A stretch of DNA of 35,459 nucleotides, from the NCBI GenBank assembly GCA_946477505.1, contig CAMKYP010000002.1, forward strand, positions 1-35,459, in the 5' to 3' direction. Both the position numbers and the translations under genes were made by a program. Each line of letters opens with the position of its first letter. Within the stretch, counting starts at the first letter, position 1. The notes beneath the pieces are model-generated. The model made no database searches, was not told where the DNA came from, and saw nothing but the letters and a program-made list of their open reading frames with translations. This DNA comes from an uncultured Dechloromonas sp. (lineage in GTDB: Bacteria; Pseudomonadota; Gammaproteobacteria; Burkholderiales; Rhodocyclaceae). Shown here piece by piece: positions 3,035-19,640 of this stretch.

Positions 3035-3930
3035 TCGACCTCCGAACGGTGAGCTGCTGTCCCGGCCCGTGACCGCCAATCTTCGTAGATTTTTTGCCAC
3101 GATGGTGACGTTTCCTGCGTCAAGAGAGGAGGGCGAAGCTTTTCTGGAACATAGTGCCCATCGCGAAACCGTCCGCATAACCGACAGGCAGTGTCCATCA
3201 GATCGCGCATTTCATCACTCGGCGGGGGCAATCGACTCCTTCCTCGCTGGAGGCCCAGTACGCGGTCGATTCCTCCTGCTATTGCGCAGGGGTAATAGCC
3301 TTGCGGGGTCAAACCCAACCCGCATGTGCTCGCGATAGCGCATCCATTTCTATAGTCGGCCCACGAGTACGCAATGCTGTCTTGTGGTGCGAGATTGAAT
3401 GGGCCGAATCCTGGCTGCACATCGCTGTTCTTGGACGAGTTCTCGATGTAGATGGATCTGGGAATCGATTGGAGGATGCGCTTCACCTTTGGTCCATAGC
3501 CATTGGTCACGAGCTGAATCGATGTGTCGGGATATTCAGCGCTATAGCGCTTCAATTCGTCGAGTATTGCCATGAAATCCGGATGGAGAGTCGGTTCCCC
3601 TCCAAGAAGTCGAATACGGCTCCAACTGCGTCGAGCCAACAGTGAATCGTCAACGAATTGTCTGACAGTATCTAGACCGATATGAGCGGCCTCTGGGGCT
3701 TGTGCACTAGACCTGTTGCAGTTATTGCAGCGGAGGTTGCATAGGTAGGTCAGATCGATCTCGATGGTGTCGGTCGCCGCGCGGTATTGGTAACCAAGTA
3801 GCTTGGTCGTTGGGCGCTGGACACGAATCCAACGAAGCAACTTCATCACCGCGAATACGCAGCGATAGAACGTCCTGAATCGACGGGGGAAATCCCGCGA
3901 ATATGAAAAGCCGCTCTTCGAGATGGACAA
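3031..3930 (-). CDS. Radical SAM protein
   Basis: CxxxCxxC motif 'CNLRCNNC' and 'LLGGEPTLHPDF'; further C-terminal cysteines (CAIASTCG, CAIAGG, CRLCG). The start could be internal at MKLLRW (~3846). Confidence 0.8.
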   Translation of the reverse strand: MSISKSGFSYSRDFPRRFRTFYRCVFAVMKLLRWIRVQRPTTKLLGYQYRAATDTIEIDLTYLCNLRCNNCNRSSAQAPEAAHIGLDTVRQFVDDSLLARRSWSRIRLLGGEPTLHPDFMAILDELKRYSAEYPDTSIQLVTNGYGPKVKRILQSIPRSIYIENSSKNSDVQPGFGPFNLAPQDSIAYSWADYRNGCAIASTCGLGLTPQGYYPCAIAGGIDRVLGLQRGRSRLPPPSDEMRDLMDTACRLCGRFRDGHYVPEKLRPPLLTQETSPSWQKIYEDWRSRAGTAAHRSEVE

Positions 3931-4020
3931 TTTTCTGCTCAGTTCGGCAGCGGGGTGAGCTGCCCAGCAAGTTGGGAGGGGCTGAAGAATGCCAGATAAT
4001 TGGGGGGTAATTCAATCTAA

Positions 4021-4932
4021 CTAAGTTGCTATCGCTCTTCCGGCTTCGCCAAGCTTCTTTCTTTGAACATAGGCGCTTTTGCTTTCGTCGTCGTATTTGC
4101 ATTCCCAGGCTGTTTTTCCATCGATTTCCTCCAGTGCTTTTTTCACGGACATTCGACGGCCATAGAGGGCATCACCACTGCTGCTGTCGCCCCAAATGTG
4201 CTTGACGAGCAGGTCGAGTCCAATACGGTTTCCCTCGCATGGTCTCAGCCAACCACTCAGCCAGACAAGTAAGCGTACTGCGGCATCAGTTTTGAGTTTT
4301 CGCAGTTCATCCATATCGACGAAGGTGGTTGGTGCCAAAACCAGTGCTTTGCTGAGCATAGGGTTGAATGCAATCTGCAATTCTCCATCGCCTTGGACTA
4401 CGCCGATCAGTTGAGCCTTCCAGTACGCTTCTGCAGAGTCCTCCTGGTAAATCGAGAATGTTGTGCTGGCCAGTCGTCCCAGGCTTTCCTCAATTCTCGT
4501 AATGGCCGGGCCGCTGATTTTCAGTCCGAGCGTATGGGCAATCTCTCTGGGCGTGACCGCAATGGTTAGGCATTCGAGATTGCTGGCATCAAGGTCTAAT
4601 TTGAGGGCGTCTCGCGCTGAAAGCTGCTCTGCATTCGAGCACTCTTGCCCGGTGCGCGTGGCTCGCCCTGGTTGGGCGGCAATTCGATGGATAGCGAGGA
4701 AGACTTTTTGGTCTTTGATGCACAAGCGGCCAGCAGGGTTTTGCCATCGAAACGTTACGATTTTGTATGGGTAGGTCACATCCAGCGGTGATTCGCTACG
4801 CGCTCCATGCATGATGGGACGGAATAGACCATCGGCTAAGCAGTGTGAGGTATCGATTCGTGCGTGATCAAAGACGATGCCTTTGACAGAGATTTCACGT
4901 TTTTTTGCGGTGAGAGATTTTGTATTTGTCAT
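4021..4932 (-). CDS. Plasmid replication initiator-like protein, IncQ RepC-type
   Basis: N-term 'HARIDTSHCLADGLFRPIMHGARSESPLDVTYPY' resembles the remembered IncQ RepC N-terminus (HVRHDPAHCLAPGLFRALKRGERKRSKLDVTYDY). Later 'DMDELRKLKTDAAVRLLVWLSGWLRP' and 'VKHIWG' have similar RepC counterparts. Confidence 0.65.
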   Translation of the reverse strand: MTNTKSLTAKKREISVKGIVFDHARIDTSHCLADGLFRPIMHGARSESPLDVTYPYKIVTFRWQNPAGRLCIKDQKVFLAIHRIAAQPGRATRTGQECSNAEQLSARDALKLDLDASNLECLTIAVTPREIAHTLGLKISGPAITRIEESLGRLASTTFSIYQEDSAEAYWKAQLIGVVQGDGELQIAFNPMLSKALVLAPTTFVDMDELRKLKTDAAVRLLVWLSGWLRPCEGNRIGLDLLVKHIWGDSSSGDALYGRRMSVKKALEEIDGKTAWECKYDDESKSAYVQRKKLGEAGRAIAT

Positions 4933-5021
4933 GAAAACAGCCTATCAAAGTGACCTGGGCTGTTGTCAAGTGAGTGAGCTAATCAACTGAAATGCTCAAT
5001 TGCCATCAGGATTTGCCGTGG

Positions 5022-5125
5022 CATTTTGTGGCATTTTGACCCCGCAAAAATGTAGCCTATATGTAGCCCAGTTGTGGTGTGAAAATTTCAATATATTGAT
5101 TTATATATAAAATTAAAACATGCAC
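5022..5125. repeat. Short tandem repeats followed by an AT-rich stretch; candidate origin-like region upstream of repC
   Basis: 'gtggcatttt gtggcatttt' then 'atgtagcctatatgtagccc', then 'gaaaatttcaatatattgatttatatataaaattaaaaca'. Confidence 0.35.
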
Positions 5126-5214
5126 CGGTGATGCTGCATCATCGGGGTATGCTTGGGCTGCTCTTTTGATTCTTTAACCATTTGATTTTATGTAATAGTT
5201 TTTATATTTTCATT

Positions 5215-5241
5215 TGGTTTCCGGAAGGCTTCCGGAAACCA
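5215..5241. repeat. 27-nt perfect palindrome / potential hairpin
   Basis: TGGTTTCCGGAAG-G-CTTCCGGAAACCA. Confidence 0.8.
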
Positions 5242-5392
5242 GGAAAATCTTAATGAAGATGTCTTGCTGGAATAGGGTGATTATCCCTTCAATGCATGCA
5301 TTGCCCAAGTGCTCGCGGTGATTTCAAGGACTGATCCCCGCGGTTGGAGGAACAATGGGCATTGCTTCATGTCAGGCGAAGGCAGAAAACGA

Positions 5393-5416
5393 AAAACCCT
5401 GCCGGAGCAGGGTTTT
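5393..5416 (-). terminator. Intrinsic terminator downstream of tRNA-Val (minus-strand sense)
   Basis: aaaaccctgc-cgga-gcagggtttt; on the minus strand the stem is followed by a T-rich tail (TTTTTCGTTTTC). Confidence 0.7.
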
Positions 5417-5448
5417 GAGATTTCGTGCTACCTTGGGGTAGGACTGTT

Positions 5449-5524
5449 TGGTGGGTGCTGACGGGGTCGAACCGCCGACATTCGCCTTGTAAGGGCGACG
5501 CTCTACCAACTGAGCTAAGCACCC
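5449..5524 (-). tRNA. tRNA-Val (anticodon UAC), CCA encoded
   Basis: Minus strand GGGTGCTTAGCTCAGTTGGTAGAGCGTCGCCCTTACAAGGCGAATGTCGGCGGTTCGACCCCGTCAGCACCCACCA; cloverleaf arms recognisable, anticodon TAC. Confidence 0.95.
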
Positions 5525-5585
5525 GGTCCATCAATGCAATACGTAGCCGATTTTGTCTCGTCTTTGCGTATTGCGCTGGTGATGG

Positions 5586-5858
5586 TTAGTTGCAAGCGTC
5601 CTTCAGGCCCTTGCCGGCGCGGAACTTCGGCGACTTGGCTGCCTTGATCTGCAGGGTCTTGCCGGTTTGCGGGTTGCGGCCGGTACGGGCGGCACGTTCG
5701 CCAACGTAGAAGGTGCCGAAACCGATCAGGCTGACCGAGTCGCCCTTCTTCAGTGCGCCGGTGATGGCTTCAACAGCGGCATCCAGAGCGCGGCCAGCCG
5801 CAGCCTTGGAAATATCGGCTTGGGTGGCGATGGCGTCGATCAGTTCAGATTTGTTCAT
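5586..5858 (-). CDS. hupB: DNA-binding protein HU-beta
   Basis: [27 protein letters not shown]...[43 protein letters not shown]; typical HU sequence, start trimmed from the ORF at 5942. Confidence 0.95.
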
Positions 5859-5978
5859 GTGAAAGTCCCCTAAAAGTAGGATTTGGAGTGGTGAAAACTT
5901 TGCGAGGACGGATTTATATCTCTCGCGAAATCCTTGTGTCAAGCGGATTTTCGGTCATTTTACCGCGGGGCGGAGGGA

Positions 5979-6017
5979 GGGAAGGATGCCAGAGCGCAGG
6001 CCGCTGGCATCCTTCCC
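5979..6017. repeat. Perfect 14-bp stem-loop between lon and hupB
   Basis: GGGAAGGATGCCAG-agcgcaggccg-CTGGCATCCTTCCC; no strong U-tract on the minus strand. Confidence 0.75.
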
Positions 6018-6024
6018 TTCAAAA

Positions 6025-8439
6025 TCAATGAGTAACGACGGTCGAGGCCGCGGCAGCATCGGTGGCGGCCTGAACGCCTGAATTGGCGTCGGTTTCGGCC
6101 GGCAGCGCTTCCGGCTTGCGTTCCAGGGCTCTTTCCAGAACCTGATCGATCCACTTGACCGGCACGATCTCGATCTTGTTTTTGATGTTGTCGGGGATTT
6201 CGGTGAGATCCTTGACGTTCTCTTCCGGGATCAGTGCCGTCTTCAAGCCGCCACGCACGGCTGCCAGCAGCTTTTCCTTGAGGCCGCCGATGGCCAACAC
6301 CTCGCCGCGCAGGGTGATTTCCCCGGTCATGCAAACGTCGCAGCGAACCGGGATGCCGGTGTAGGAGGAAACCAGCGCGGTGGTCATGGCGATGCCGGCC
6401 GACGGTCCATCTTTCGGCGTGGCGCCTTCCGGAACGTGGATGTGGATATCGGTCTTTTCAAAAGCCTCATCCTTGACCCCCAGGCGGTGCGAGCGGGCAC
6501 GGACCACCGAACGAGCGGCTTCGACCGATTCCTTCATGACGTCGCCCAGCGAGCCGGTGCGGATGATGTTGCCCTTGCCCGGCATGTTGGCGCATTCGAT
6601 GGTCAGCAGTTCGCCACCGACCTCGGTCCACGCCAGCCCGGTGACCTGGCCGACCTGATTTTCCTTTTCGGCCATGCCGAAGCTGTAGCGACGGACACCG
6701 AGGAACTTGTCCAGGTTCTTGGCATTGACGGCGATCTTCGAGTCGCGTTTCTTGAGAACGAGCGTCTTGACGATCTTGCGGCAAATCTTGGAAATCTCGC
6801 GCTCGAGCGCACGAACGCCGGCCTCGCGGGTGTAGTAGCGGACGATGTCGCGGATGGCGCTCTCGGCGACCATGGCTTCCGTCTTCTTGACGCCATTGTT
6901 CTTCAACTGCTTGGGCAGCAGGTAGCGCATGGCGATGTTGACCTTTTCGTCCTCGGTATAGCCGGACAGGCGGATCACTTCCATGCGGTCGAGCAGCGGC
7001 GCCGGGATGTTCAGCGTATTGGCCGTGGCCACGAACATCACATCGGACAGGTCGAAATCGACTTCGACATAATGGTCCTGGAAGGTGTTGTTCTGTTCCG
7101 GGTCGAGCACTTCGAGCAGGGCGGACGATGGATCGCCACGGAAATCCTGGCCGAGCTTGTCCACTTCGTCGAGCAGGAACAGCGGGTTGCGCACGCCGAT
7201 CTTGGTCAGGCTCTGCAGGATCTTGCCCGGCATGGAACCGATATAGGTGCGGCGGTGGCCGCGGATTTCGGCTTCGTCGCGGACGCCGCCCAGCGCCATG
7301 CGGACGAACTTGCGGTTCGTCGCCTTGGCGATGGACTGGCCAAGCGAGGTCTTGCCGACACCTGGAGGGCCGACCAGGCACAGGATCGGCGCCTTGACCT
7401 TCTCGACGCGTTGTTGCACGGCAAGGTATTCGACGATGCGTTCCTTGACCTTGTCGAGACCGTAGTGGTCTTGGTCGAGAATCTTCTCGGCGGCACGGAG
7501 ATCCTTGCTGATGCGCGTCTTCTTGCGCCAGGGCAGACCGATCAGCGTTTCGATGAAGTTGCGGACGACGGTGGCTTCGGCGGACATCGGTGACATCAGG
7601 CGCAGCTTCTTCAGCTCGCTCTGTGCCTTGGCCAGTCCTTCCTTGCTCATGCCGGCAGCGGTGATCTTCTTGTCCAGTTCCTCGAGATCGGCGCCTTCCT
7701 CGCCTTCGCCCAGTTCCTTCTGGATGGCCTTGACCTGTTCGTTCAGGTAGTACTCGCGCTGGCTCTTTTCCATCTGGCGCTTGACGCGGCCACGGATGCG
7801 TTTTTCGACCTGCAGGATGTCGATTTCGGCTTCCAGTTGGGAGAGCAGGCGGTCGATGCGGTCGCGGATGCTTTCCATCTCCAGCACTTCCTGCTTCTGC
7901 TCGAGCTTGAGCGGCAGATGGGCGGCAATAGTGTCGGCCAGGCGGCCTGCGTCCTCGATGCCGGCGATGGAGGAGAGGACCTCCGGCGGAATTTTCTTGT
8001 TCAGCTTGACGAACTGGTCGAACTGGGCGACCACGGCGCGGCGCATGGCCTCAATCTCGTGATCCTCGACGCCGGGCTGGACGAGCGGGGTGGCGGTGGC
8101 CATAAAGACGGAGGTTTGGACGTCGATGGCTTCGACGTGGGCGCGCTGCGTGCCCTCGACCAGCACCTTGACGGTACCGTCGGGCAGCTTGAGCATCTGC
8201 AGGATATTGGCGAGGCAGCCGATGCGGTACAGGTCGTCCGGTTCGGGCTCATCCTTGGCGGCAGACTTCTGGGCCAGCAGCAGGATGCTCTTGCCTGATT
8301 CCATGGCCATTTCGAGAGCCTTGATCGATTTCGGGCGGCCCACGAACAGCGGGATGACCATGTGCGGAAACACGACGACATCGCGCAACGGCAGCAGCGG
8401 CAGTTCGACGGTTTCCGGGAGGGTGTTGGGGTTCGACAT
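6025..8439 (-). CDS. lon: ATP-dependent protease La (Lon)
   Basis: 'LPLLPLRDVVVFPHMVIPLFVGR', Walker A 'GPPGVGKTSLG', catalytic 'PKDGPSAGIAM'. Confidence 0.97.
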   Translation of the reverse strand: MSNPNTLPETVELPLLPLRDVVVFPHMVIPLFVGRPKSIKALEMAMESGKSILLLAQKSAAKDEPEPDDLYRIGCLANILQMLKLPDGTVKVLVEGTQRAHVEAIDVQTSVFMATATPLVQPGVEDHEIEAMRRAVVAQFDQFVKLNKKIPPEVLSSIAGIEDAGRLADTIAAHLPLKLEQKQEVLEMESIRDRIDRLLSQLEAEIDILQVEKRIRGRVKRQMEKSQREYYLNEQVKAIQKELGEGEEGADLEELDKKITAAGMSKEGLAKAQSELKKLRLMSPMSAEATVVRNFIETLIGLPWRKKTRISKDLRAAEKILDQDHYGLDKVKERIVEYLAVQQRVEKVKAPILCLVGPPGVGKTSLGQSIAKATNRKFVRMALGGVRDEAEIRGHRRTYIGSMPGKILQSLTKIGVRNPLFLLDEVDKLGQDFRGDPSSALLEVLDPEQNNTFQDHYVEVDFDLSDVMFVATANTLNIPAPLLDRMEVIRLSGYTEDEKVNIAMRYLLPKQLKNNGVKKTEAMVAESAIRDIVRYYTREAGVRALEREISKICRKIVKTLVLKKRDSKIAVNAKNLDKFLGVRRYSFGMAEKENQVGQVTGLAWTEVGGELLTIECANMPGKGNIIRTGSLGDVMKESVEAARSVVRARSHRLGVKDEAFEKTDIHIHVPEGATPKDGPSAGIAMTTALVSSYTGIPVRCDVCMTGEITLRGEVLAIGGLKEKLLAAVRGGLKTALIPEENVKDLTEIPDNIKNKIEIVPVKWIDQVLERALERKPEALPAETDANSGVQAATDAAAASTVVTH

Positions 8440-8509
8440 TACGAAGCCTTTGAAATAGGTATGTTGCCCCCAAATGGGGGCGGGAAACCGGGTTTCAAGA
8501 GCCCCCGGC

Positions 8510-9772
<1,263 letters not shown>

Positions 9773-10483: not shown

Positions 10484-11788
10484 TTACTGCTTTTGGCCCA
10501 TCAGTTCATCAAAAACGGCAGCCTTGTCGGTAACCTTGGCCTTGCTCAGTACCCAGGCGACCACGTTGTTCTCGATGGCCACGCCTTCGACTTCCTGTAG
10601 GCGCTGCGGTTGAGCGTAGTACCAGCGGATGACTTCTTCCGGCTGTTCGTAGGAGGCTGCGGTTTCCTCGACCATCGCACGGACCTGTTCCGGGGTTGCT
10701 TGAAGCTTCTCGGTCTTTACGACTTCGGCGAGGATCAGGCCGAGGGTGACGCGGCGCTTGGCTTGGTCAGCGAACCATTCCGGCTGGATCGGTAGATCCT
10801 TGACCTTCATGCCGCGCTGTTCCATGTCCTGGCGGGCGGCCTGCATCAGGCGCTGGATTTCCATGTCGACGAGGGCGACCGGCACGGTGATCGGGTTGGT
10901 GGCGAGCAGGGCTTCCATGACCTGATCCTTGATCTTGCCTTCGATGCGGCGCTTGACCTCACGCTTCAGGTTGGCTTCGATCTCGGCGCGCATCTTGGTC
11001 ACATCGCCGTCGGCGATACCCATGCCCTTGGCGAATTCGGCGTCGACTTCAGGTAGCTTCGGCGCTTGCACCTGCTTGACGGTGATCTCGAACTGAACTG
11101 TCTGGCCTGCCAGGTCCTTGGCGTGGTAGTCGGCCGGGAAGGTCAGGTCGAAAGTCTTGGATTCGCCGGCCTTGGCGCCTTCGACGGCATTTTCAAAGTC
11201 AGGCAGCATCATGCCCTGACCGAGGACAAACGGATAATCGTTGGCTTGACCGCCCTGGAACGGCACGCCGTCCTTCTTGCCGAGGAAGTCGATGACGACG
11301 CGGTCTTCCTTGGCGGCGGCGCGGTCGGCGTCGGCGTAAGAGACGCGCTGCTTGCGCAGAATGTCCAAGGTCTTGTCGACTTCGGCGTCGCTCACGTCCA
11401 GCGTCGGGCGCTCGATTTCGGAGGCGGCGAGGTCACCAATGGCGAATTCCGGGTAGGTCTCGAAAATGGCGGTGAATTCGAGGTGGGTGGTGCTTTCGGT
11501 AACCTTCGGCTCGATGCGCGGATAGCCGGCAACGCGGGTCTTCTGGGCAGTGACGGTTTCGCCGAAGACGCGGTCGAGTTCCTCGGACAGCACTTCATGG
11601 CGGGCCTGGTCGCCATACTGCTGCTTGACGATATTGAACGGCACCTTGCCCGGACGGAAGCCAGGCATCTTCATGTTCTTGCCCATACGCTTCAGGCGTT
11701 GTTCCATTTCCTTCTCGACATCGGCGATAGCGATGGAGAGGTCGACGCGGCGTTCGAGTTCGTTAGCTTGTGCAGTGGTTGCTTCCAT
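10484..11788 (-). CDS. tig: Trigger factor
   Basis: 'GFRPGKVPFNIVKQQYG' and PPIase-domain 'DRVVIDFLGKKDGVPFQGGQANDYPFVLGQGMMLPDFENAVEGAKAGE'. Confidence 0.95.
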   Translation of the reverse strand: MEATTAQANELERRVDLSIAIADVEKEMEQRLKRMGKNMKMPGFRPGKVPFNIVKQQYGDQARHEVLSEELDRVFGETVTAQKTRVAGYPRIEPKVTESTTHLEFTAIFETYPEFAIGDLAASEIERPTLDVSDAEVDKTLDILRKQRVSYADADRAAAKEDRVVIDFLGKKDGVPFQGGQANDYPFVLGQGMMLPDFENAVEGAKAGESKTFDLTFPADYHAKDLAGQTVQFEITVKQVQAPKLPEVDAEFAKGMGIADGDVTKMRAEIEANLKREVKRRIEGKIKDQVMEALLATNPITVPVALVDMEIQRLMQAARQDMEQRGMKVKDLPIQPEWFADQAKRRVTLGLILAEVVKTEKLQATPEQVRAMVEETAASYEQPEEVIRWYYAQPQRLQEVEGVAIENNVVAWVLSKAKVTDKAAVFDELMGQKQ

Positions 11789-11951
11789 GAGTATTCCTTG
11801 TGACTACGGAGCCGAGAAAAAATAAGCCGACAATAATATCACGGTCGATCAAATGCCGTGATGCCCGCGCCAATTCAGACAGCTGTCGATTTTCTGCAAA
11901 AGCCTGTAGACAGAAGCGAGTGAGCATCGTACAATGCGCGCCTTCTTCGAC

Positions 11952-12028
11952 GGCGGCATTAGCTCAGTCGGTAGAGCACTGGATTGTGATTCCAGGTGTC
12001 ACCGGTTCGATCCCGGTATGTCGCCCCA
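11952..12028 (+). tRNA. tRNA-His (anticodon GUG), encoded G-1 and CCA; 3' part supplied by the integrated element
   Basis: GGCGGCATTAGCTCAGTCGGTAGAGCACTGGATTGTGATTCCAGGTGTCACCGGTTCGATCCCGGTATGTCGCCCCA; 8-bp acceptor stem typical of tRNA-His. Confidence 0.95.
11991..12028 (+). repeat. attL: 38-bp direct repeat (tRNA-His 3' end)
   Basis: tccaggtgtcaccggttcgatcccggtatgtcgcccca, identical to 18076-18113. Confidence 0.95.
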
Positions 12029-12034
12029 AGATTC

Positions 12035-12066
12035 AAGGCCCCGCAAGGTTATCCCTGCGGGGCCTT
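12035..12066 (+). terminator. Stem-loop/terminator just inside the element after tRNA-His
   Basis: AAGGCCCCGCA-aggttatccc-TGCGGGGCCTT followed by atctatt. Confidence 0.6.
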
Positions 12067-12147
12067 ATCTATTCTGCCCTCTGAACTGGCTTGGTGTCCC
12101 AATCCAGTGTCCCAAATCACCACCGGGACGGTTCATGCGAGGGCCGT

Positions 12148-13635
12148 ATGTCCTATCGTTTGCCGGCCAATCTTCACCGCAACCGACACGGCACCCTATA
12201 CTTCCGCCTTTCCGTTCCTCTTGACCTGCGCCAGATGGTCGGCCAGGGGGAGATTTACCGCAGTCTCGACACGTCCAGCGTGCGCCAGGCTGCGGATGTC
12301 GCTCAAACGCTCAGAATCGAGCTGTGGGCGATTTTCAGGGAGTGTAGGGCTGCAACCATGTCCGAAGGAGAAAAAACGCTGCCAGCGGTCAATATTGAAC
12401 GTCTGCAAGAGTTGGTGCGCTCGACCAAGAAGATTCTGAAGGCCGAAGCGCGTGGCGATGAGTTACAGGCCGATAAGGATGCGCTGCTAGACGAGTTGGC
12501 CAGGGTCAAGGCGCAGCACCGCCGGGAGTTGGCCATAGCCATCAAGTCGAAGATGCCCGGAGGTGCCACCGCAACGGCGCCAGCCAAGCCCACCGGTGGC
12601 AAGACCATCAAGGAGGTGTGGGAACTATACCGCGCTCAGATGGTGGCACTTGGCAAGCAGGGCGATGTGAAGGGCGGTTGGCGGGACGAGGGACGAGCCG
12701 ATATCGACCATTGGCCCCACGTTCGAGACTTCATCGAGCGCATCGGCGGCGACAAACCCATCCGGGAGGTGACAGAGGACGAGGTTATCGACTTCCACGG
12801 CCATGTCATGGTTACACCTGACATCAAGTCGGCGGGTTCGCGCAAAAAGAAGTTAAACAGGGCTGCGGCACTGTTTAAGTTTGCGAAAACGAAGCGCCTA
12901 ATTCAAGACGACTTCGCCGATCTTTTCAAATTTACAGGAACGATTAAGAAGAACTCATTCCTCAAGTTTTCAACAGATGACTTGAAAGCATTATTCGAGT
13001 CTGTCGCATACCGGGAATGTCAGTTTGACACGCCGTCAAAATACTGGCTTCCCGTGCTTGGTCTTTTCACGGGTGCGCGATTGAATGAGCTTTGCCAGTT
13101 GCTCAAGACTGACATTGGCCGGCATGGTGAAATCGACACGATCAGCATTATGGATGAGGAAGAGAACAAGCGGCTAAAGACAGAGGCATCGCGTCGTATT
13201 GTTCCAATTCATTCAAAGTTAATCGAGCTTGGCTTTCTTGAATTTGTGAAGTCAGCACCGGCAGGAAGATTGTTCCCTCACCTGAGAGAAGATCCATTGA
13301 AGCCAGGCAGCTACATTGCGAAGGCAACGGAGGACTTTACGAGCTACAGGCGCACAGTAGGCGTTGGCAACAAAGAGGGGGAGGGCAAGAGTCGTAAGGC
13401 TTTTCATAGCTTCCGCTCAACGTTTATTGATGCGATGCGCCATGCCAAGCCTGAGCCGGTTCCGGAAGAGCGCAGAACCCGTCTGGTCGGGCATGAATAT
13501 GATGGCACCCATAACACAAGTTATGATGGTGGCGACGCGCGGGATATGTTCCCCATCGAAACGCTAAAGGCTGACGTTGAGCGCGTGCAGTTTGACGTGG
13601 CATTCACTCCCTACGGATTAAGGTATGTGTCATAA
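12148..13635 (+). CDS. int: Tyrosine-type site-specific recombinase / integrase
   Basis: Start MSYRLPANLHRNRHGTLYFRLSVPLDLR; 'TGARLNELCQLLKTDI', 'SRRIVPIHSKLIELGF', 'FHSFRSTFIDAMR', 'RLVGHEYDGTHNTSYDGG' match the R..., HxxR and terminal Y-containing catalytic blocks. Confidence 0.9.
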   Translation: MSYRLPANLHRNRHGTLYFRLSVPLDLRQMVGQGEIYRSLDTSSVRQAADVAQTLRIELWAIFRECRAATMSEGEKTLPAVNIERLQELVRSTKKILKAEARGDELQADKDALLDELARVKAQHRRELAIAIKSKMPGGATATAPAKPTGGKTIKEVWELYRAQMVALGKQGDVKGGWRDEGRADIDHWPHVRDFIERIGGDKPIREVTEDEVIDFHGHVMVTPDIKSAGSRKKKLNRAAALFKFAKTKRLIQDDFADLFKFTGTIKKNSFLKFSTDDLKALFESVAYRECQFDTPSKYWLPVLGLFTGARLNELCQLLKTDIGRHGEIDTISIMDEEENKRLKTEASRRIVPIHSKLIELGFLEFVKSAPAGRLFPHLREDPLKPGSYIAKATEDFTSYRRTVGVGNKEGEGKSRKAFHSFRSTFIDAMRHAKPEPVPEERRTRLVGHEYDGTHNTSYDGGDARDMFPIETLKADVERVQFDVAFTPYGLRYVS

Positions 13636-13665
13636 TTAAGATGCATTCAATAAAAGGGAGGAACT

Positions 13666-14247
13666 ATGCTTAAGACTGCATTCGCAGCTCTGGCTTTGAT
13701 TGTGCCGTTCTGCACAGTTCAAGCAAAGGAGCAAACAAAGCAACCGCAAAAGTTTGTTTCATCGGCTCTTGAGCTAAAGGGCGCTCGGTTAGGTTTGTCT
13801 ATGAGTGACATCAAAGGAGATTTCTCTATCTCTTGCAGCAAAGACAAATGCGATGACTACTATTTCCCAAAAATTGGTGGAAGTCTGTCCGTAATTCCCG
13901 ATAAGAGGACATTTGCAGGCGCACCAATTACACGTTACAGCTTTGAGTTCTACGAAGATCGGCTTGTTGAAATGCACGTCTGTGTTGAGCCAGATTACTT
14001 TCAACTGATCTTGCTGGCGTTGCAAGAAAAATACGGCGAACCTCAAGTCAAGGAAAAGGATGTTTTGCAAAATGGCTACGGCGCAACCTTCAATAACCTC
14101 AAGGGAACATGGAAGGCGAAGGATGGCTCAACGATGCGACTGGAGCGATTCTATCCAAACATGGAATCGTCTTGCGTCATACTCAAAGACAACGTAGCGT
14201 TAAGCAAGAAACCGACGACGGGTAAGAACCCGATGGCTGACCTATAG
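13666..14247 (+). CDS. Hypothetical exported protein
   Basis: Signal peptide-like N-terminus MLKTAFAALALIVPFCTVQAKEQ; RBS-like 'gggagg' upstream of the ATG. No family recognised. Confidence 0.7.
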   Translation: MLKTAFAALALIVPFCTVQAKEQTKQPQKFVSSALELKGARLGLSMSDIKGDFSISCSKDKCDDYYFPKIGGSLSVIPDKRTFAGAPITRYSFEFYEDRLVEMHVCVEPDYFQLILLALQEKYGEPQVKEKDVLQNGYGATFNNLKGTWKAKDGSTMRLERFYPNMESSCVILKDNVALSKKPTTGKNPMADL

Positions 14248-14268
14248 TTCTTTAATCGTGAGGAAATT

Positions 14269-14487
14269 ATGCAGACCATTGACGAACTTAAAGCAGAGCA
14301 GAAACGCCTCGAATCTGAACTGAGCAAGGTCAAAGCAAAGATCAAGCGATTCGACCAAGACCGGGAGCGCGAGAAGGTTAAGCAGGTTCGCAAGCTCATG
14401 GATGAATTGGGCCTGACCATTGAACAGATCACACCCAAGACCCGCAAGCCGCGCAAGGTTAAGCCGTCACCGGCTCCAGCCGCTTAA
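14269..14487 (+). CDS. Short H-NS-family-like protein lacking the C-terminal DNA-binding motif
   Basis: MQTIDELKAEQKRLESELSKVKAKIKRFDQDREREKVKQVRKLMDELGLTIEQITPKTRKPRKVKPSPAPAA; the coiled coil plus 'VRKLMDELGLTIEQI' resembles the N-terminal region of betaproteobacterial H-NS-like proteins. 'agga' RBS-like sequence upstream. Confidence 0.55.
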   Translation: MQTIDELKAEQKRLESELSKVKAKIKRFDQDREREKVKQVRKLMDELGLTIEQITPKTRKPRKVKPSPAPAA

Positions 14488-15136
14488 TCACGCGCTGCAC
14501 CTGAGCAAGTAGCCAGCTCCCACCCTTCGGAGCTGGCACGCCGATTCTGTTAAGTTCGGCCATCATTCCACGTTGAGACAATCCACGCGCCTTCATTCCA
14601 TCGAACAGGGAGCGCAGCTTCTCGGCGTAATCGTCGGCGACCTTCTGACGTGCTTCGACATTGGGACGCAGATTGTCAGCTCCGGCACGACCCAGGACAA
14701 CACCGCGAGACTTCGCGACGGCCAAAGCGTCTTTCGTGCGCTGGCTAATCCGCTTCGCCTCATGCTCGGCAAACGCGGCCATGATGTGAATGGTTAGTTC
14801 GTTCGCTTCGGGCATATCGCACGCGACGAACTTCACTTTCGACTCCATCAGACCGGACACGAAATGCACGTTACGCGCCAGGCGGTCGAGCTTGGCAATG
14901 ATGAGCGTAGCGCCTTTCTTGCGACACGCAGCGAGAGCCGATTTCAACTGGGGGCGCTTCGCCAGGGCGTCCGAACCCTTGCCCGTTTCGACTTCCTGAA
15001 ACTCGGCGACCAACTCCCATTCGCCACCATTCAGGAACCGGCTAACGGCTTCCTTCTGAGCGTCCAGGCCAAGACCGGACGCGCCTTGCTTTTGCGTGCT
15101 GACTCGAAAGTAAGCGATGAACTTGCCGTTTGCCAT
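14459..15136 (-). CDS. Serine recombinase (resolvase/invertase family)
   Basis: 'FIAYFRVSTQKQGASGLGLDAQKEAV', 'LIIAKLDRLARNVHFVSGLMES', 'FAEHEAKRISQRTKDALAVAKSRGVVLG'. Confidence 0.93.
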   Translation of the reverse strand: MANGKFIAYFRVSTQKQGASGLGLDAQKEAVSRFLNGGEWELVAEFQEVETGKGSDALAKRPQLKSALAACRKKGATLIIAKLDRLARNVHFVSGLMESKVKFVACDMPEANELTIHIMAAFAEHEAKRISQRTKDALAVAKSRGVVLGRAGADNLRPNVEARQKVADDYAEKLRSLFDGMKARGLSQRGMMAELNRIGVPAPKGGSWLLAQVQRVIKRLEPVTA

Positions 15137-15216
15137 TGTTGCCTCCCTTGCTGACTACAGAACAAGACGTTCGTTTAATGTGTGGTCAGTATGCCATGCC
15201 GAGCATGTAGGAGTCA

Positions 15217-15277
15217 ATAGTGAATCTTATACTTGCATTCGCGTATGATTTATGTTAATGTCTCGTCCATAGTGAAT
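15217..15277. promoter_or_regulatory. Direct repeat ATAGTGAAT x2 in the divergent intergenic region
   Basis: atagtgaat at 15217-15225 and 15269-15277, between the serine recombinase gene and the downstream operon. Confidence 0.35.
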
Positions 15278-15294
15278 AACCAGGACGCAACAGC

Positions 15295-15855
15295 ATGACC
15301 ACCACCGAACTTCTGAGCCGCCAGGCAGCCGCCGAATGGTTGGCGCAGCAGCTCCAGGACAAGAACGCCGAACAGTGGGCGCTCTTCCTCCGCAACAACG
15401 CGAACAATGCACGCCGCGCCATCTACCGCCTGCCGGTCGAGCAGATCGGGCGCAACTCCTTCTATCAGCCCGACGAGCTGGCGAAGTTCGTCCAGTTCGA
15501 GCAAGGCCGACAGCTCGGCCAGCTCAAACTTACCGGAAGAGCCGCCGAAGTCCTCCAGGCATTCGGAACCGGAACCAGAGGCGCAACCGCTAACGGGCGC
15601 AAATGGAAGGGCGGTAGCGCAAACATCGGCCTGACCAATAGCGGCGAACGCTTCGTTCAGACCATGATTAACGAGCCGCTTACCGTGTTCGCAATGACAC
15701 CCGCCCAGGCTGTCGAATTCGGCAAAGAGCTGATCGAAGCAGGCCAGGCCGCACAACGTCAGAACAGCCAGGCCAACACCGGCAACGGTGCCGACATGAC
15801 CGGCTACAAAACCGTCACCGACAATCAAGACATCCTGATTCAGCGAAAGGGCTAA
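15295..15855 (+). CDS. Hypothetical protein, element gene
   Basis: Intact ORF of 186 aa (MTTTELLSRQAAAEWLAQQLQDKNAEQWALFLRNN...), first in a tightly spaced series. Confidence 0.65.
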   Translation: MTTTELLSRQAAAEWLAQQLQDKNAEQWALFLRNNANNARRAIYRLPVEQIGRNSFYQPDELAKFVQFEQGRQLGQLKLTGRAAEVLQAFGTGTRGATANGRKWKGGSANIGLTNSGERFVQTMINEPLTVFAMTPAQAVEFGKELIEAGQAAQRQNSQANTGNGADMTGYKTVTDNQDILIQRKG

Positions 15856-15857
15856 TC

Positions 15858-16286
15858 ATGGCAAGCAAGACAGCAAAACCCGTCAAGACCGACACCGTTA
15901 GTCTTGCCGAAGCGGCATACATGCTGCAATCCGAACTCGGCAACTTTCGTCAGTGGGTAGCGTTCCTTAACGACACCAACAAGGGCGATCCGACCAGCGT
16001 TTGCGGTATCAGCCTTCATGCCTGCGCTCACATGCACGACGGCCACCAGTTCAGACCCCGTTACGCGCTTATCGACGTGCTGGAGTTCATTAGTCGAGTC
16101 CAGGCAATTGAACCGAACGCCAGGCCGGCGAAGATTCAGCCGATCCCGCTCATGATCCACAAGGGCCGCTATTGGAAGCTCAACAAGTTCGACAAGGAAG
16201 GCAACCCCGTAACCACAACCATGCGGCACCTTGCACCCTTGAACGGCGCAAAGAGCAGCACCGGCACAGCCGCAACGATGCACTGA
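15858..16286 (+). CDS. Hypothetical protein, element gene
   Basis: ORF of 142 aa starting 2 bp after the previous stop (MASKTAKPVKTDTVSLAEAAYMLQSELGNFRQWVAFL...). Confidence 0.65.
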   Translation: MASKTAKPVKTDTVSLAEAAYMLQSELGNFRQWVAFLNDTNKGDPTSVCGISLHACAHMHDGHQFRPRYALIDVLEFISRVQAIEPNARPAKIQPIPLMIHKGRYWKLNKFDKEGNPVTTTMRHLAPLNGAKSSTGTAATMH

Positions 16287-16344
16287 ATACCCGACCAGGG
16301 GCGGCGGGATAACCGCCCCACCACTCAACCAAGGAGCAACAACA

Positions 16345-16518
16345 ATGCAAACCGTAACCTTTGACCAGGCCCACGAAATCATCGACCAAGCCAGCTACTT
16401 GCAACCGTCCATCGACGGCGGCGACAAGACAGTTCATTTTGGCATCGACGAGAAAGGCCGCGAGTTCGTTTTGATCGTGTCGGCGATGACCGGAAAGGGC
16501 AAGATCGGCATCCTGTAA
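16345..16518 (+). CDS. Small hypothetical protein (57 aa)
   Basis: 'aaggagcaacaacaATG' strong RBS; MQTVTFDQAHEIIDQASYLQPSIDGGDKTVHFGIDEKGREFVLIVSAMTGKGKIGIL. Below the length cutoff of the ORF track. Confidence 0.55.
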   Translation: MQTVTFDQAHEIIDQASYLQPSIDGGDKTVHFGIDEKGREFVLIVSAMTGKGKIGIL

Positions 16519-16526
16519 CCAGGGCA

Positions 16527-16631
16527 ACAGGGAAAGCGAAAGCCGTTTTCCCTGTCGTCTTGAGTCAGTCAGGAGTGACTGAGCGAGACACCAAAAAGAA
16601 AGCCGCCAGCAGGCACAAGACCAGCGGCGGC
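16527..16631. repeat. Cluster of three inverted repeats upstream of rep (candidate origin)
   Basis: ACAGGGAAA-gcgaaagccgt-TTTCCCTGT (16527-16555); TCAGTCA-ggag-TGACTGA (16565-16582); GCCGCC...GGCGGC (16602-16631). Confidence 0.5.
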
Positions 16632-16633
16632 AA

Positions 16634-17872
16634 ATGTTCATACGCAAAATGGATTATACCAATTCCCTTCACTGTCGGGCCGTAGTTGATTGGATCGAAG
16701 TAGAGATTCAGACGATCAATGCGACCAACTTTCAGACCGTTCAACGGGCGTTTGGTAAGGTGCTTAACTTGCCCGAAAGCATCAATATTTGGGTAAAAGC
16801 ACATGATGCAAATGAAGGTGGCGGAACATGCCGTTTTTCGGTTCGCATTCAGGACGTTACGCGCTATTACGACCTTGAGAAATGGTTAATAAATGTTAGC
16901 GCAATGTTACCCCTTTCCGAGAGTTGGCTTATCTCGAAAATGGAGCTTGCGTTAGACGTATATTGCGACGATCAAGAAGCAATGACGGCACGCCTTTACA
17001 AGTTCATGGCAAACCCTGTCAGCGATAACCGGCGCATGTATCACGAGGGGCGCGGCACACCTAAAGCCGTTCCTCGACACTTCGATTCAATCGAGCGCCA
17101 TCTGTCCGAAGGCTGGCAAATCGCCATCGGCAACAAGACCGACAACGAGTATCAACACCTCTACGTTAAGGACACCGACACACAGGACGGACAGCGGCAC
17201 AAGGTAGAGAAACGAGCCAGGCTCGAAATCAGATTGTCGGGTGCAGCATTGCCTTACCAGACCCCGGAAGAGTGGCAGCAATGCAAGTTCGAGAGGATGG
17301 CCGCTTACTTCAAGCAGCGTCAGCTTAAAGACAATCTCGACCCGCTCATTCAAACGCTGGCAGAGGCAACCGACCAGATCGGCGAACGCAAGACCAGGAA
17401 CAGGCGGGAAGGTGGCACACGGCAATACAGCAAGGCGACCAAGGCCGACCCCATTAACGGGGCGATCCGTCAGGCACTACGCGACCTGTCGAAGCGATGG
17501 GCAAGCACTGGCAAGCGGGGACGGGTTGCAAAGTCGGCTTGCGGAAATTCGGGGCGAATTAACGAGCAGAACCCGCATGAACAAAGGAAACAGGTAGCTG
17601 ACTCTAATAACTACATATACGAACAAGAAGAACAACAAGGCAAAGACAACCAGGAACAACACATTCAGGGCAACAACGGGCGCAACCGTGAGCAGTCGGC
17701 AGAATCGGCCAAGCCGATTCAGACCGACCCAACACGCAGCGCACTGGATGACCTGATCCAGAGTTACGAAGCAACGCCGGAAGCGAAGAACGAACACAAC
17801 CGGATTGATGAACTCATGGGGGCGGTTGTCGGCGCTGCCGACTCCCCGCCCCATCAAACATCGAAGTCCTAG
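16634..17872 (+). CDS. Putative replication initiation protein (Rep)
   Basis: 'CRAVVDWIEVEIQTINATNFQTVQRAF' and 'KVEKRARLEIRLSGAALP' recall Rep_trans / phage-replication-type initiators; polar low-complexity C-terminus. Start may be MDYTNS at 16649. Confidence 0.5.
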   Translation: MFIRKMDYTNSLHCRAVVDWIEVEIQTINATNFQTVQRAFGKVLNLPESINIWVKAHDANEGGGTCRFSVRIQDVTRYYDLEKWLINVSAMLPLSESWLISKMELALDVYCDDQEAMTARLYKFMANPVSDNRRMYHEGRGTPKAVPRHFDSIERHLSEGWQIAIGNKTDNEYQHLYVKDTDTQDGQRHKVEKRARLEIRLSGAALPYQTPEEWQQCKFERMAAYFKQRQLKDNLDPLIQTLAEATDQIGERKTRNRREGGTRQYSKATKADPINGAIRQALRDLSKRWASTGKRGRVAKSACGNSGRINEQNPHEQRKQVADSNNYIYEQEEQQGKDNQEQHIQGNNGRNREQSAESAKPIQTDPTRSALDDLIQSYEATPEAKNEHNRIDELMGAVVGAADSPPHQTSKS

Positions 17873-17924
17873 AAAAATCGACGACCCTCGAAGGCAGTCC
17901 ATTCATCAACGAGGACGATTTTTC
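17872..17924 (+). terminator. Long imperfect stem-loop after rep
   Basis: GAAAAATCG ... CGATTTTTC with an inner cctcg/cgagg pairing; T-run in the 3' arm. Confidence 0.4.
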
Positions 17925-17981
17925 GTGAAATCTTATACATTGGCACCGCTCGGCCAGGCCGCGATATACTTGCCCCAAGCA

Positions 17982-18001
17982 GGTGTCCCAACCGGGACAC
18001 C
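17982..18001. repeat. Inverted repeat near the right end, candidate arm-type site
   Basis: GGTGTCCC-aacc-GGGACACC; GTGTCCCAA is also present twice at the left end (12094-12102, 12107-12115). Confidence 0.5.
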
Positions 18002-18075
18002 GTGCGACGATCAAGATTTGTTTGGGGTGCCGAAGAATCAAGCGGTTGGCGCCGGTAGGATGGTGACACGGTGAG

Positions 18076-18113
18076 TCCAGGTGTCACCGGTTCGATCCCG
18101 GTATGTCGCCCCA
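18076..18113 (+). repeat. attR: 38-bp direct repeat (tRNA-His 3' end)
   Basis: Identical to 11991-12028. Confidence 0.95.
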
Positions 18114-18120
18114 GATTTAA

Positions 18121-18152
18121 ACCCCCGAAAGTCGAAAGACTCTCGGGGGTTT
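18121..18152 (+). terminator. Likely original tRNA-His terminator, now downstream of attR
   Basis: acccccga...tcgggggt stem followed by tttctcttt. Confidence 0.65.
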
Positions 18153-18170
18153 TCTCTTTGGAGTTTTGCG

Positions 18171-19640
18171 ATGCCTTCGTCCCTTGCCACACCTGCTGTG
18201 TTTTCCGGTCTTCAACCTGCAGTCGTATGGGCGCATTTTGCCACGCTGTGCCGTATTCCCCGTGCCTCCAAGCATGAAGCCTTACTCCGCGACGAATTGC
18301 TCGCCTGGGCGCTTGGAAAGGGATTGCATGGCGAGGTCGACGGTGTGGGGAATCTGCTTATCCGCAAGCCGGCAACGGCAGGTCGCGAGCATTCGCCTGG
18401 GGTGATTCTCCAGGCACACCTCGACATGGTGTGCCAGAAGAACGGCGACAGCGCGCACGATTTTCTGCGTGATCCGATTGTTCCTGTGCTTGACGACGGC
18501 TGGCTGGTTGCTGACAAAACTACCCTCGGGGCGGACAACGGGGTAGGCGTGGCGCTGATCCTGGCCGTTCTCGACAGCGAGGACATTGCGCACGGTCCGA
18601 TTGAAGCTCTGCTGACGATCGATGAGGAGGCCGGCATGGGTGGTGCGCGCGGTCTGGCGTCGGGTGCGCTGCAGGGGCGTCTGATGCTGAATCTGGATAC
18701 CGAGGAGTGGGGCGAGTTTTATCTCGGTTGCGCAGGTGGGCTGGATGTCAACGTCGAGCGCCCCGGCCGGTCGGTTTCCGTAGCCGAAGGCCATCAAGGC
18801 TGGGAGATCACGCTTCATGGCTTGCGCGGTGGGCATTCGGGAGTTGATATCCACGAAGAACGCGGCAATGCAATCAAATTGCTGGTACGCGTGCTGCGCC
18901 ACCTGGAACAGGATTTCCCGTTGCGCTTGGCGGCATTGAGGGGCGGTACGGCACGCAATGCCCTGCCGCGGGAGGCTAGCGCGTCGTTTACGCTGCGTGC
19001 GGGGATGGGGAATGCCCTGGTGGCTCGCGTGGCGGAACTCCAATTGTTGCTGCGTAGCGAATTGCTGGGCGTGGATGACGCGCTGGTGCTGGACGTCTCG
19101 CCTTGTGCTGTGAGTACCGTTTTGACGGCGGAGGAGCAGGCGGTCTGGCTGTCTACCCTGCATGCGGCGCCGCACGGTGTCCGACGCATGAGCCGGCAGG
19201 TTCCGGGCGTGGTCGAGACGTCCAATAATCTTGGCATGGTTGACCTGCACCCGAATGGTGGCTCGTGTAACTTCATGGTGCGTTCGCTGCTCGACAGCGG
19301 AAGTGCAGCATTGGCTGACGAGATTGTCAGTTTGTGGGGACTCAGTGGCACGGTGGCGAGTAGGGATGGCTACTACCCCGGATGGACGCCGAATCCGTCG
19401 TCAGCCCTGCTGAAAACCTGCCAAGCGGTCTATAAGCGGAATTTCGGTGCAGATTCGAGCGTGCAGGTAATTCATGCCGGACTGGAGTGCGGCATCATTG
19501 GCGCCAAGTATCCTGGGCTGGATATCGTTTCCTTCGGTCCGACCATACGCGGTGCCCACGCGCCGGGGGAACGGGTCGAGGTCGCATCGGTAGCACGCTG
19601 CTGGCGACTGCTGACGGCTATCCTGGCTGAATTGCGGTGA
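18171..19640 (+). CDS. pepD: Aminoacyl-histidine dipeptidase (cytosol nonspecific dipeptidase, PepD)
   Basis: 'GVILQAHLDMVCQKN', 'TTLGADNGVGVAL', 'LTIDEEAGMGGARGL', 'GLRGGHSGVDIHEERGNAIKLLVR', 'IHAGLECGIIGAKYPGLDIVSFGPTIRGAHAPGERV'. Confidence 0.93.
   Translation: MPSSLATPAVFSGLQPAVVWAHFATLCRIPRASKHEALLRDELLAWALGKGLHGEVDGVGNLLIRKPATAGREHSPGVILQAHLDMVCQKNGDSAHDFLRDPIVPVLDDGWLVADKTTLGADNGVGVALILAVLDSEDIAHGPIEALLTIDEEAGMGGARGLASGALQGRLMLNLDTEEWGEFYLGCAGGLDVNVERPGRSVSVAEGHQGWEITLHGLRGGHSGVDIHEERGNAIKLLVRVLRHLEQDFPLRLAALRGGTARNALPREASASFTLRAGMGNALVARVAELQLLLRSELLGVDDALVLDVSPCAVSTVLTAEEQAVWLSTLHAAPHGVRRMSRQVPGVVETSNNLGMVDLHPNGGSCNFMVRSLLDSGSAALADEIVSLWGLSGTVASRDGYYPGWTPNPSSALLKTCQAVYKRNFGADSSVQVIHAGLECGIIGAKYPGLDIVSFGPTIRGAHAPGERVEVASVARCWRLLTAILAELR

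Follow-up and report, generated by a model that had tools for sequence, protein, structure and literature searches.

Small integrated elements that rely on a helper for their transfer have been described both among mobilizable elements and among phage satellites. Rep_trans proteins act as relaxases of integrative and conjugative elements (ICEs) and integrative mobilizable elements (IMEs), including known IMEs of streptococci (PMC5704250, PMC7563843). For these proteins, separating initiators from relaxases is probably of no relevance (PMC5704250). The phage satellite PICMI115, which is 6,110 bp long, carries int, alpA, and a primase gene but no packaging genes; it replicates by the rolling-circle mode, is packaged as an 8-copy concatemer, and has been reported with a new defense system (PMC10803314). 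Satellites of filamentous phages are also known (PMC11389934). The element analyzed in the present study lies in a contig of an uncultured Dechloromonas sp. (CAMKYP010000002.1, positions 1 to 35,459; "the window" hereafter means this whole stretch of 35,459 nucleotides), where it is integrated at the 3' end of a tRNA-His gene and carries genes for a tyrosine integrase (int), a small serine recombinase (serR), and a protein predicted to have the Rep_trans fold (rep). We consider, with a probability of roughly 70%, that it is an integrative rolling-circle plasmid which belongs to a so far unlabeled beta-proteobacterial family and needs a helper to move.

The integration into tRNA-His is shown by a repeat and by empty sites. 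When the sequences flanking the element (11760-12028 and 18114-18329) were joined to reconstruct an empty site, three genomes of the same genus (G734, G719, and G700) gave contiguous matches with 87-91% identity, which prove the insertion and provide the comparison with empty tRNA-His sites that the original prediction, made from the sequence of the window, had proposed. The element is bounded by a maximal perfect direct repeat of 38 bp, by far the longest direct repeat of the region, which starts in the 3' half of the tRNA gene and ends with its encoded CCA (Table 1). The original prediction had described this repeat at both ends of the element, with int directly inside attL and the core genes tig and pepD outside, and all of this agrees with our analysis, in which the element is flanked by a gene read as tig (10484-11788) and, on its other side, by a gene read as pepD. 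Its estimate of approximately 6.1 kb for 11991-18113 is corrected to 6,085 bp for the integrated unit. With the junction it gave for the excised circle, 18075 joined to 12029, the repeat would be lost; the circle would instead have 18113 joined to 12029 (or 18075 to 11991). The G+C content of the element is 0.54, against 0.59-0.60 in the flanks, and terminator-like hairpins (I10 and I11) exist downstream of both repeat copies, so that the restored tRNA gene probably keeps a hairpin supplied by the element. The sequence GTGTCCCAA occurs three times in the 35 kb, where 0.28 copies are expected, twice near attL and once near attR (17983-17991), and might serve as the arm site of the integrase. 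In many genomes of other congeners, the two halves of the empty-site query are separated by roughly 1-42 kb; tRNA-His is therefore an integration hotspot in the genus, also used by other islands.

Table 1. Features of the element in the window and of its sibling loci (positions in siblings are those of each locus).
Locus	Feature	Position	Strand	Basis or remark
Window	tRNA-His (gtg), intact target gene	11953-12028	+	ARAGORN; Rfam tRNA 65.6 bits; 3' part restored by the element
Window	attL repeat, 38 bp	11991-12028	+	perfect, maximal
Window	two copies of GTGTCCCAA, candidate integrase arm sites	12094-12115	+	putative function
Window	int, tyrosine integrase, N-terminal DUF6538	12148-13635	+	Pfam DUF6538 E 7e-13; PHROG integrase E 8e-21
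Window	signal-peptide protein, 193 aa, cargo	13666-14247	+	typical N-terminal signal peptide by inspection
Window	72-aa protein, coiled-coil, basic tail	14269-14487	+	best match PHROG 10171 (unknown function), E 1e-6
Window	serR, small serine recombinase (resolvase/invertase type), 225 aa	14459-15136	-	Pfam Resolvase E 8e-27
Window	candidate serR recombination (res-like) site	15151-15189		dyad CTGACTAC/GTGGTCAG around AGACGTTCGTTTAAT; putative function
Window	o186, first gene of rep-side operon	15295-15855	+	46% identical homolog at the same position in L059
Window	o142	15858-16286	+	homologs upstream of rep in L020 (35%), L057 (30%), L059 (42%)
Window	o57	16345-16518	+	homologs upstream of rep in L010, L057, L059
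Window	rep leader: HP1, GTCTTG, HP2, A-rich, HP3 (GGCANNAGACC-type apex)	16525-16638	+	aligned in 7 loci; candidate double-strand origin
Window	rep, predicted divergent Rep_trans-fold rolling-circle initiator or relaxase	16649-17872	+	Foldseek 4CIJ/4CWC/4CWE; invariant motifs; alternative start 16634
Window	attR repeat, 38 bp	18076-18113	+	perfect
L010, L057	tmRNA site			74-bp repeats at 95%
L058, L061	tRNA-Gly site			18- and 17-bp repeats
L060	beside ksgA			82-bp repeat at 96%
L011	rlmD site			
L023	adjoins tRNA-Met			
L012, L020, L059	int, serine recombinase, and Rep present			
L020 (Cupriavidus pauculus)	SLATT protein and UG17 reverse transcriptase (DRT)	6087-8133		
L011	PDC-S06 candidate system			
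L060	AbiO/Nhi defense helicase	7071-8558		5.4-kb element beside ksgA
L061	type II methyltransferase and neighboring HNH gene (type II restriction-modification)	5533-7950		tRNA-Gly sibling

The two recombinase classes and the Rep of its own, which the original prediction had pointed out in the element, are found together in at least 11 beta-proteobacterial loci (the window, L010, L011, L012, L020, L023, and L057-L061), and the combination is thus a trait of a family, not an oddity of this genome. These loci lie in tRNA-His, tRNA-Met, tRNA-Gly, tmRNA, ksgA, or rlmD, and the family elements that could be delimited are 5.4-8.9 kb in size. Because two types of serine recombinase and at least two groups of integrases exist in the family, what recurs is the combination rather than one lineage of recombinase.

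The product of rep matches no Pfam, PHROG, or NCBIfam family; the proteins of the window gave no match with the Pfam Rep_trans model (PF02486) at E values up to 1, and a PF02486 search of the genome of origin was silent. Relatives collected by tblastn and profile searches exist in genomes of the order and in Chitinimonas taiwanensis, Cupriavidus pauculus, Cupriavidus sp. U2, and Comamonas testosteroni, and D19, E104, A106, Y177, K179, D182, A195, R196, E198, and L285 (numbering of the window Rep) are invariant among eight aligned Reps. In the solved Rep_trans initiator RepDE, the metal ligands are D46, D142, and E214, the nucleophile Y191 is accompanied by K193, and A144, D146, and R212 are conserved (PMC4797284). 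The three metal-ligand positions of the present family are all carboxylates (D19, E104, and E198), the Y-x-K and R-x-E motifs do not vary among the eight Reps, and the spacing agrees with that of RepDE, where E104-x-A106, Y177-x-K179, and R196-x-E198 correspond to D142-x-A144, Y191-x-K193, and R212-x-E214, respectively. AlphaFold2 models were constructed for the window Rep (pLDDT 53) and the C. pauculus Rep (pLDDT 64), and a Foldseek search against PDB ranked the Geobacillus Rep_trans initiator 4CIJ first for both. The latter model also matched RepDE/RepDN (4CWC and 4CWE) and then TATA-binding proteins, which share their fold with Rep_trans proteins (PMC13107129). The Rep_trans matches had E values of 1e-6 to 1e-4 and a probability of 1.00, and the second-ranked viral fold match of the window Rep model was A0A345MNV4, described as an inovirus Rep_trans protein (PMC13107129). 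Based on the models and motifs, we conclude that Rep is predicted to be a divergent, unannotated nickase of the Rep_trans fold, acting as initiator, relaxase, or both; the putative Rep of the original prediction is upheld by this fold and the active-site residues (PMC4797284). As the start of the protein, position 16649 (MDYTN, resembling MDYS of the relatives) seems more likely than 16634.

The leader that precedes rep has no family in Rfam. The leaders of the window, L010, L057, and L059 have three hairpins and the GTCTTG box in common, and those of L058, L020, and L021 have the last hairpin, HP3, with an apex of GGCRNAGACC or nearly so. The covariance model built from these seven leaders scored 37-106 bits on them, with 89.5 bits for that of the window, and elsewhere its best match was 19.9 bits, except for one locus with 46.9 bits (L084, in L092). 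That locus was chosen among 400 genomes by the DNA pattern alone, without Rep similarity, and the first open reading frame (ORF), approximately 30 bp past the leader, encodes a protein of 315 aa containing all four of the Rep motifs (8124-9071), which scores 25 bits with the family profile, is very divergent, had been missed by the profile search, and was reached only via the leader hairpin. This is the strongest evidence that the leader and Rep act together, and we regard the leader as a candidate replication origin. It is scattered over the Rep tree and marks no single Rep clade. The short pattern of HP3 was rejected as a stand-alone marker because it is too loose, matching many genomes as its reversed control does; only the covariance model separates true leaders. 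Upstream of the L092 Rep gene, a broken tyrosine recombinase gene and a transposase-like gene were observed.

Several results weigh against the reading of the element as an integrative rolling-circle plasmid. The Foldseek TM-scores are low, about 0.3, as is the confidence of the window Rep model, while that of the C. pauculus model is moderate; profile-profile comparison with PF02486 members was weak (probability 20%, P 0.001), with the motifs aligned in order, and PDB sequences searched with the Rep profile gave no true match. The covariance model did not find the leader in five loci, and the leader therefore cannot serve as the origin for all members; within the aligned leaders no significant covariation was detected, the sequence itself being conserved. 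No excisionase was identified in the element, no free circular or plasmid copy was found, and in a DNA search of plasmids no match spanned most of the element, its resolvase gene giving the best ones. Rep also had no match in phage records. With regard to the leader, pairing is kept in 87% of cells while covariation is not significant, which means that a role as DNA, i.e., as a double-strand origin, and a role as RNA or operator are both possible. In the latter case, the hairpins would control rep as an attenuator or an autoregulatory operator, as would suit translational control, because in all loci HP3 is oriented like rep and, where the distance was measured, it ends approximately 15-18 bp ahead of the rep start. 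The conservation of the sequence beyond that of pairing changes, and the linkage of the leader even to a Rep whose divergence puts it beyond the reach of the profile search, count against such control while being compatible with it at the RNA level; we consider it a real possibility, if the less probable one.

The serR product of L023 is 79% identical to that of the window, and upstream of serR lies a 39-bp stretch with a dyad and a 15-bp core, the latter also existing upstream of serR in L023. The window has a single copy of the whole candidate site, and the genome has a single copy of its right part. Breaking down multimers is a known need of small replicons, and one site per element suits a multimer-reducing resolvase. 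The life of the integrative rolling-circle plasmid could then be considered as follows: the integrase would insert the element at the 3' end of tRNA-His and remove it from there; Rep, as a tyrosine nickase, would nick the circular form at the hairpin leader before its own gene, and the nicked circle would be copied by the rolling-circle mode; the small serine recombinase would turn multimers into monomers at the single dyad site beside serR; the leftover space would hold cargo, which in siblings is often an anti-phage defense system; and movement to a new cell would use a helper.

The need for a helper is suggested by the gene content. Family scans of the eight ORFs of the element recognized no type IV secretion system (T4SS), coupling, capsid, terminase, Zot, or accessory mobilization gene, nor any inovirus coat gene, AlpA, or primase, which bears out the earlier view that recognizable transfer and virion genes are lacking. 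The host genome has both an inovirus-type Zot gene and a VirB4/TrbE-type gene (G000 contigs C449 and C497; L049 and L050), and a phage helper and a conjugative helper are thus both possible. One possibility is that the element is an IME, whose Rep would be a MobT-like relaxase that nicks an origin of transfer, perhaps the leader, and borrows the mating channel of a resident conjugative element. The relaxase role of Rep_trans proteins mentioned above and the VirB4-type gene agree with this idea, but the scans found no coupling or accessory mobilization gene, the published Rep_trans/MobT IMEs that we retrieved are from streptococci and other Firmicutes, and the host VirB4 gene need not belong to a working system, so that we hold the idea to be tenable, yet unlikely. 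Another possibility is a phage satellite induced by its helper, with rolling-circle concatemers packaged headful as in PICMIs, or with a single strand packaged in a filamentous phage. The properties of PICMI115, the existence of filamentous-phage satellites, the Zot gene, the defense cargo of siblings, and the inovirus protein among the fold matches of Rep (PMC13107129) would all fit; on the other hand, AlpA, primase, terminase, and capsid genes were not recognized, DNA matches between the element and the Zot contig were at chance level, and viral contigs scanned with the window Rep alone gave no match, just as phage records did not. We judge this unlikely. The "minimal integrative plasmid or satellite" of the original prediction, which would excise, replicate, and depend on a helper, stands as the best reading, in which integration rests on the repeat and the empty sites and Rep on its predicted fold and active-site residues. 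The leader hairpins before rep, the candidate serR site, and the defense cargo of siblings are additions to that prediction.

Rep was detected in 7/77 genomes of the genus, 6/299 of a family sample, and 4/400 of an order sample, with different queries. Copies also exist without the full set: that of L024 neighbors prophage-like genes, that of L092 lies by a broken integrase, and others are on enterobacterial plasmids. The Rep relative in L024 (8069-9682) has a long C-terminal extension and is encoded shortly after phage tail genes. An unannotated Rep relative is carried by 27 plasmids of Escherichia, Salmonella, and Shigella, of approximately 74-134 kb, and shares 30% identity with the C. pauculus Rep along 96% of its length; in the one plasmid inspected (L048, 11944-12960), its gene lies beside a RepB gene and adjoins IS1.

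Four siblings carry known or candidate defense systems (L020, L011, L060, and L061; Table 1). The L060 Rep has one in-frame stop and that of L061 is a fragment, and a hotspot such as tRNA-His can keep dead islands, which might indicate that the window element is also a decaying, immobile remnant. Its ORFs are, however, all open, its repeats perfect, and the active-site residues of its Rep intact, which makes such decay very improbable. In L010, the cargo (3757-6087) consists of an alpha/beta hydrolase gene, two genes of unknown function, and a CopG-type antitoxin-like gene, has no known defense match, and is possibly an undescribed system. As for the window, neither cargo protein, of 193 or 72 aa, has a recognized function: the former exceeded no family cut-off in Pfam, PHROG, or NCBIfam, and the latter, predicted earlier to be a short H-NS-like protein, scored only 15.4 bits with Pfam Histone_HNS_N against a cut-off of 24.5, so that this identity is not supported and PHROG 10171 is its best match. 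The products of o186, o142, and o57 belong to no Pfam, PHROG, or NCBIfam family, and several members have a short ORF with a signal-peptide-like start.

A more speculative extension, which we think improbable, is that family members are "defense shuttles," in which a helper phage packages concatemers or single strands made by Rep from the 5-9 kb integrase-Rep-resolvase chassis and thereby spreads exchangeable anti-phage systems among beta-proteobacteria. If true, they would parallel the PICMIs, with another enzyme for replication and a hairpin origin of their own. Many small genomic islands have no known route of replication or movement, and the family offers a concrete replication hypothesis for one class of them: its catalytic tyrosine can be named, its candidate origin can be mapped, and its leader motif found a member missed by a protein profile. 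One chassis at several genomic sites with different defense systems also makes the travel of defense genes a directly testable question. No description of the element family was found in the open-access full-text literature (subscription journals being outside the search); the components are of known kinds, while the Rep clade, its leader, and the chassis of three genes that recurs with exchangeable defense cargo appear to be undescribed.

Comparison with known systems clarifies where the element belongs. With the Rep_trans initiators RepDE, RepSTK1, and inovirus Rep, its Rep shares the predicted fold, the three carboxylate ligands, Y-x-K, and R-x-E, and the features of the superfamily, i.e., the fold, Tyr-x-Lys, and three carboxylates, are thus found in low-to-moderate-confidence models and in eight homologs; it differs in having no Pfam match, in the use of Glu instead of Asp as the second ligand, and in that the equivalent of R189 is not conserved. 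The filamentous-phage satellites RS1 and pDolos are likewise replicons without virion genes of their own, and depend on a phage. RS1 encodes a Rep_trans-type initiator. In contrast to these satellites, the window element has no recognized filamentous-phage genes and possesses a serine recombinase and a tRNA-site integrase; the Zot-type ATPase and coat genes of inoviruses are absent from it, and the Zot gene of the host lies on another contig. The T4SS and coupling genes that an ICE encodes for itself were not recognized among the eight ORFs, while the integrase and att sites of an integrated IME are present. The streptococcal Rep_trans/MobT IMEs are similarly small, with an integrase, a Rep_trans-type protein, no mating-channel genes, and an implied helper, whereas the window element is beta-proteobacterial, has a Rep outside the Pfam Rep_trans model and an extra serine recombinase, and has siblings with defense cargo. 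The PICMIs of Vibrionaceae agree with it in the size of about 6.1 kb, the integrase and replication gene, the lack of packaging genes, and a reported defense system; of their core of int, AlpA, and primase, however, the element has int only, with a predicted Rep_trans-fold initiator in place of the primase and a serine recombinase in addition, and the family uses tRNA and other 3'-end targets rather than the fis site. The nearest analogues are therefore the streptococcal IMEs (PMC5704250, PMC7563843) and PICMIs (PMC10803314), and the element has the integrative part of both definitions.

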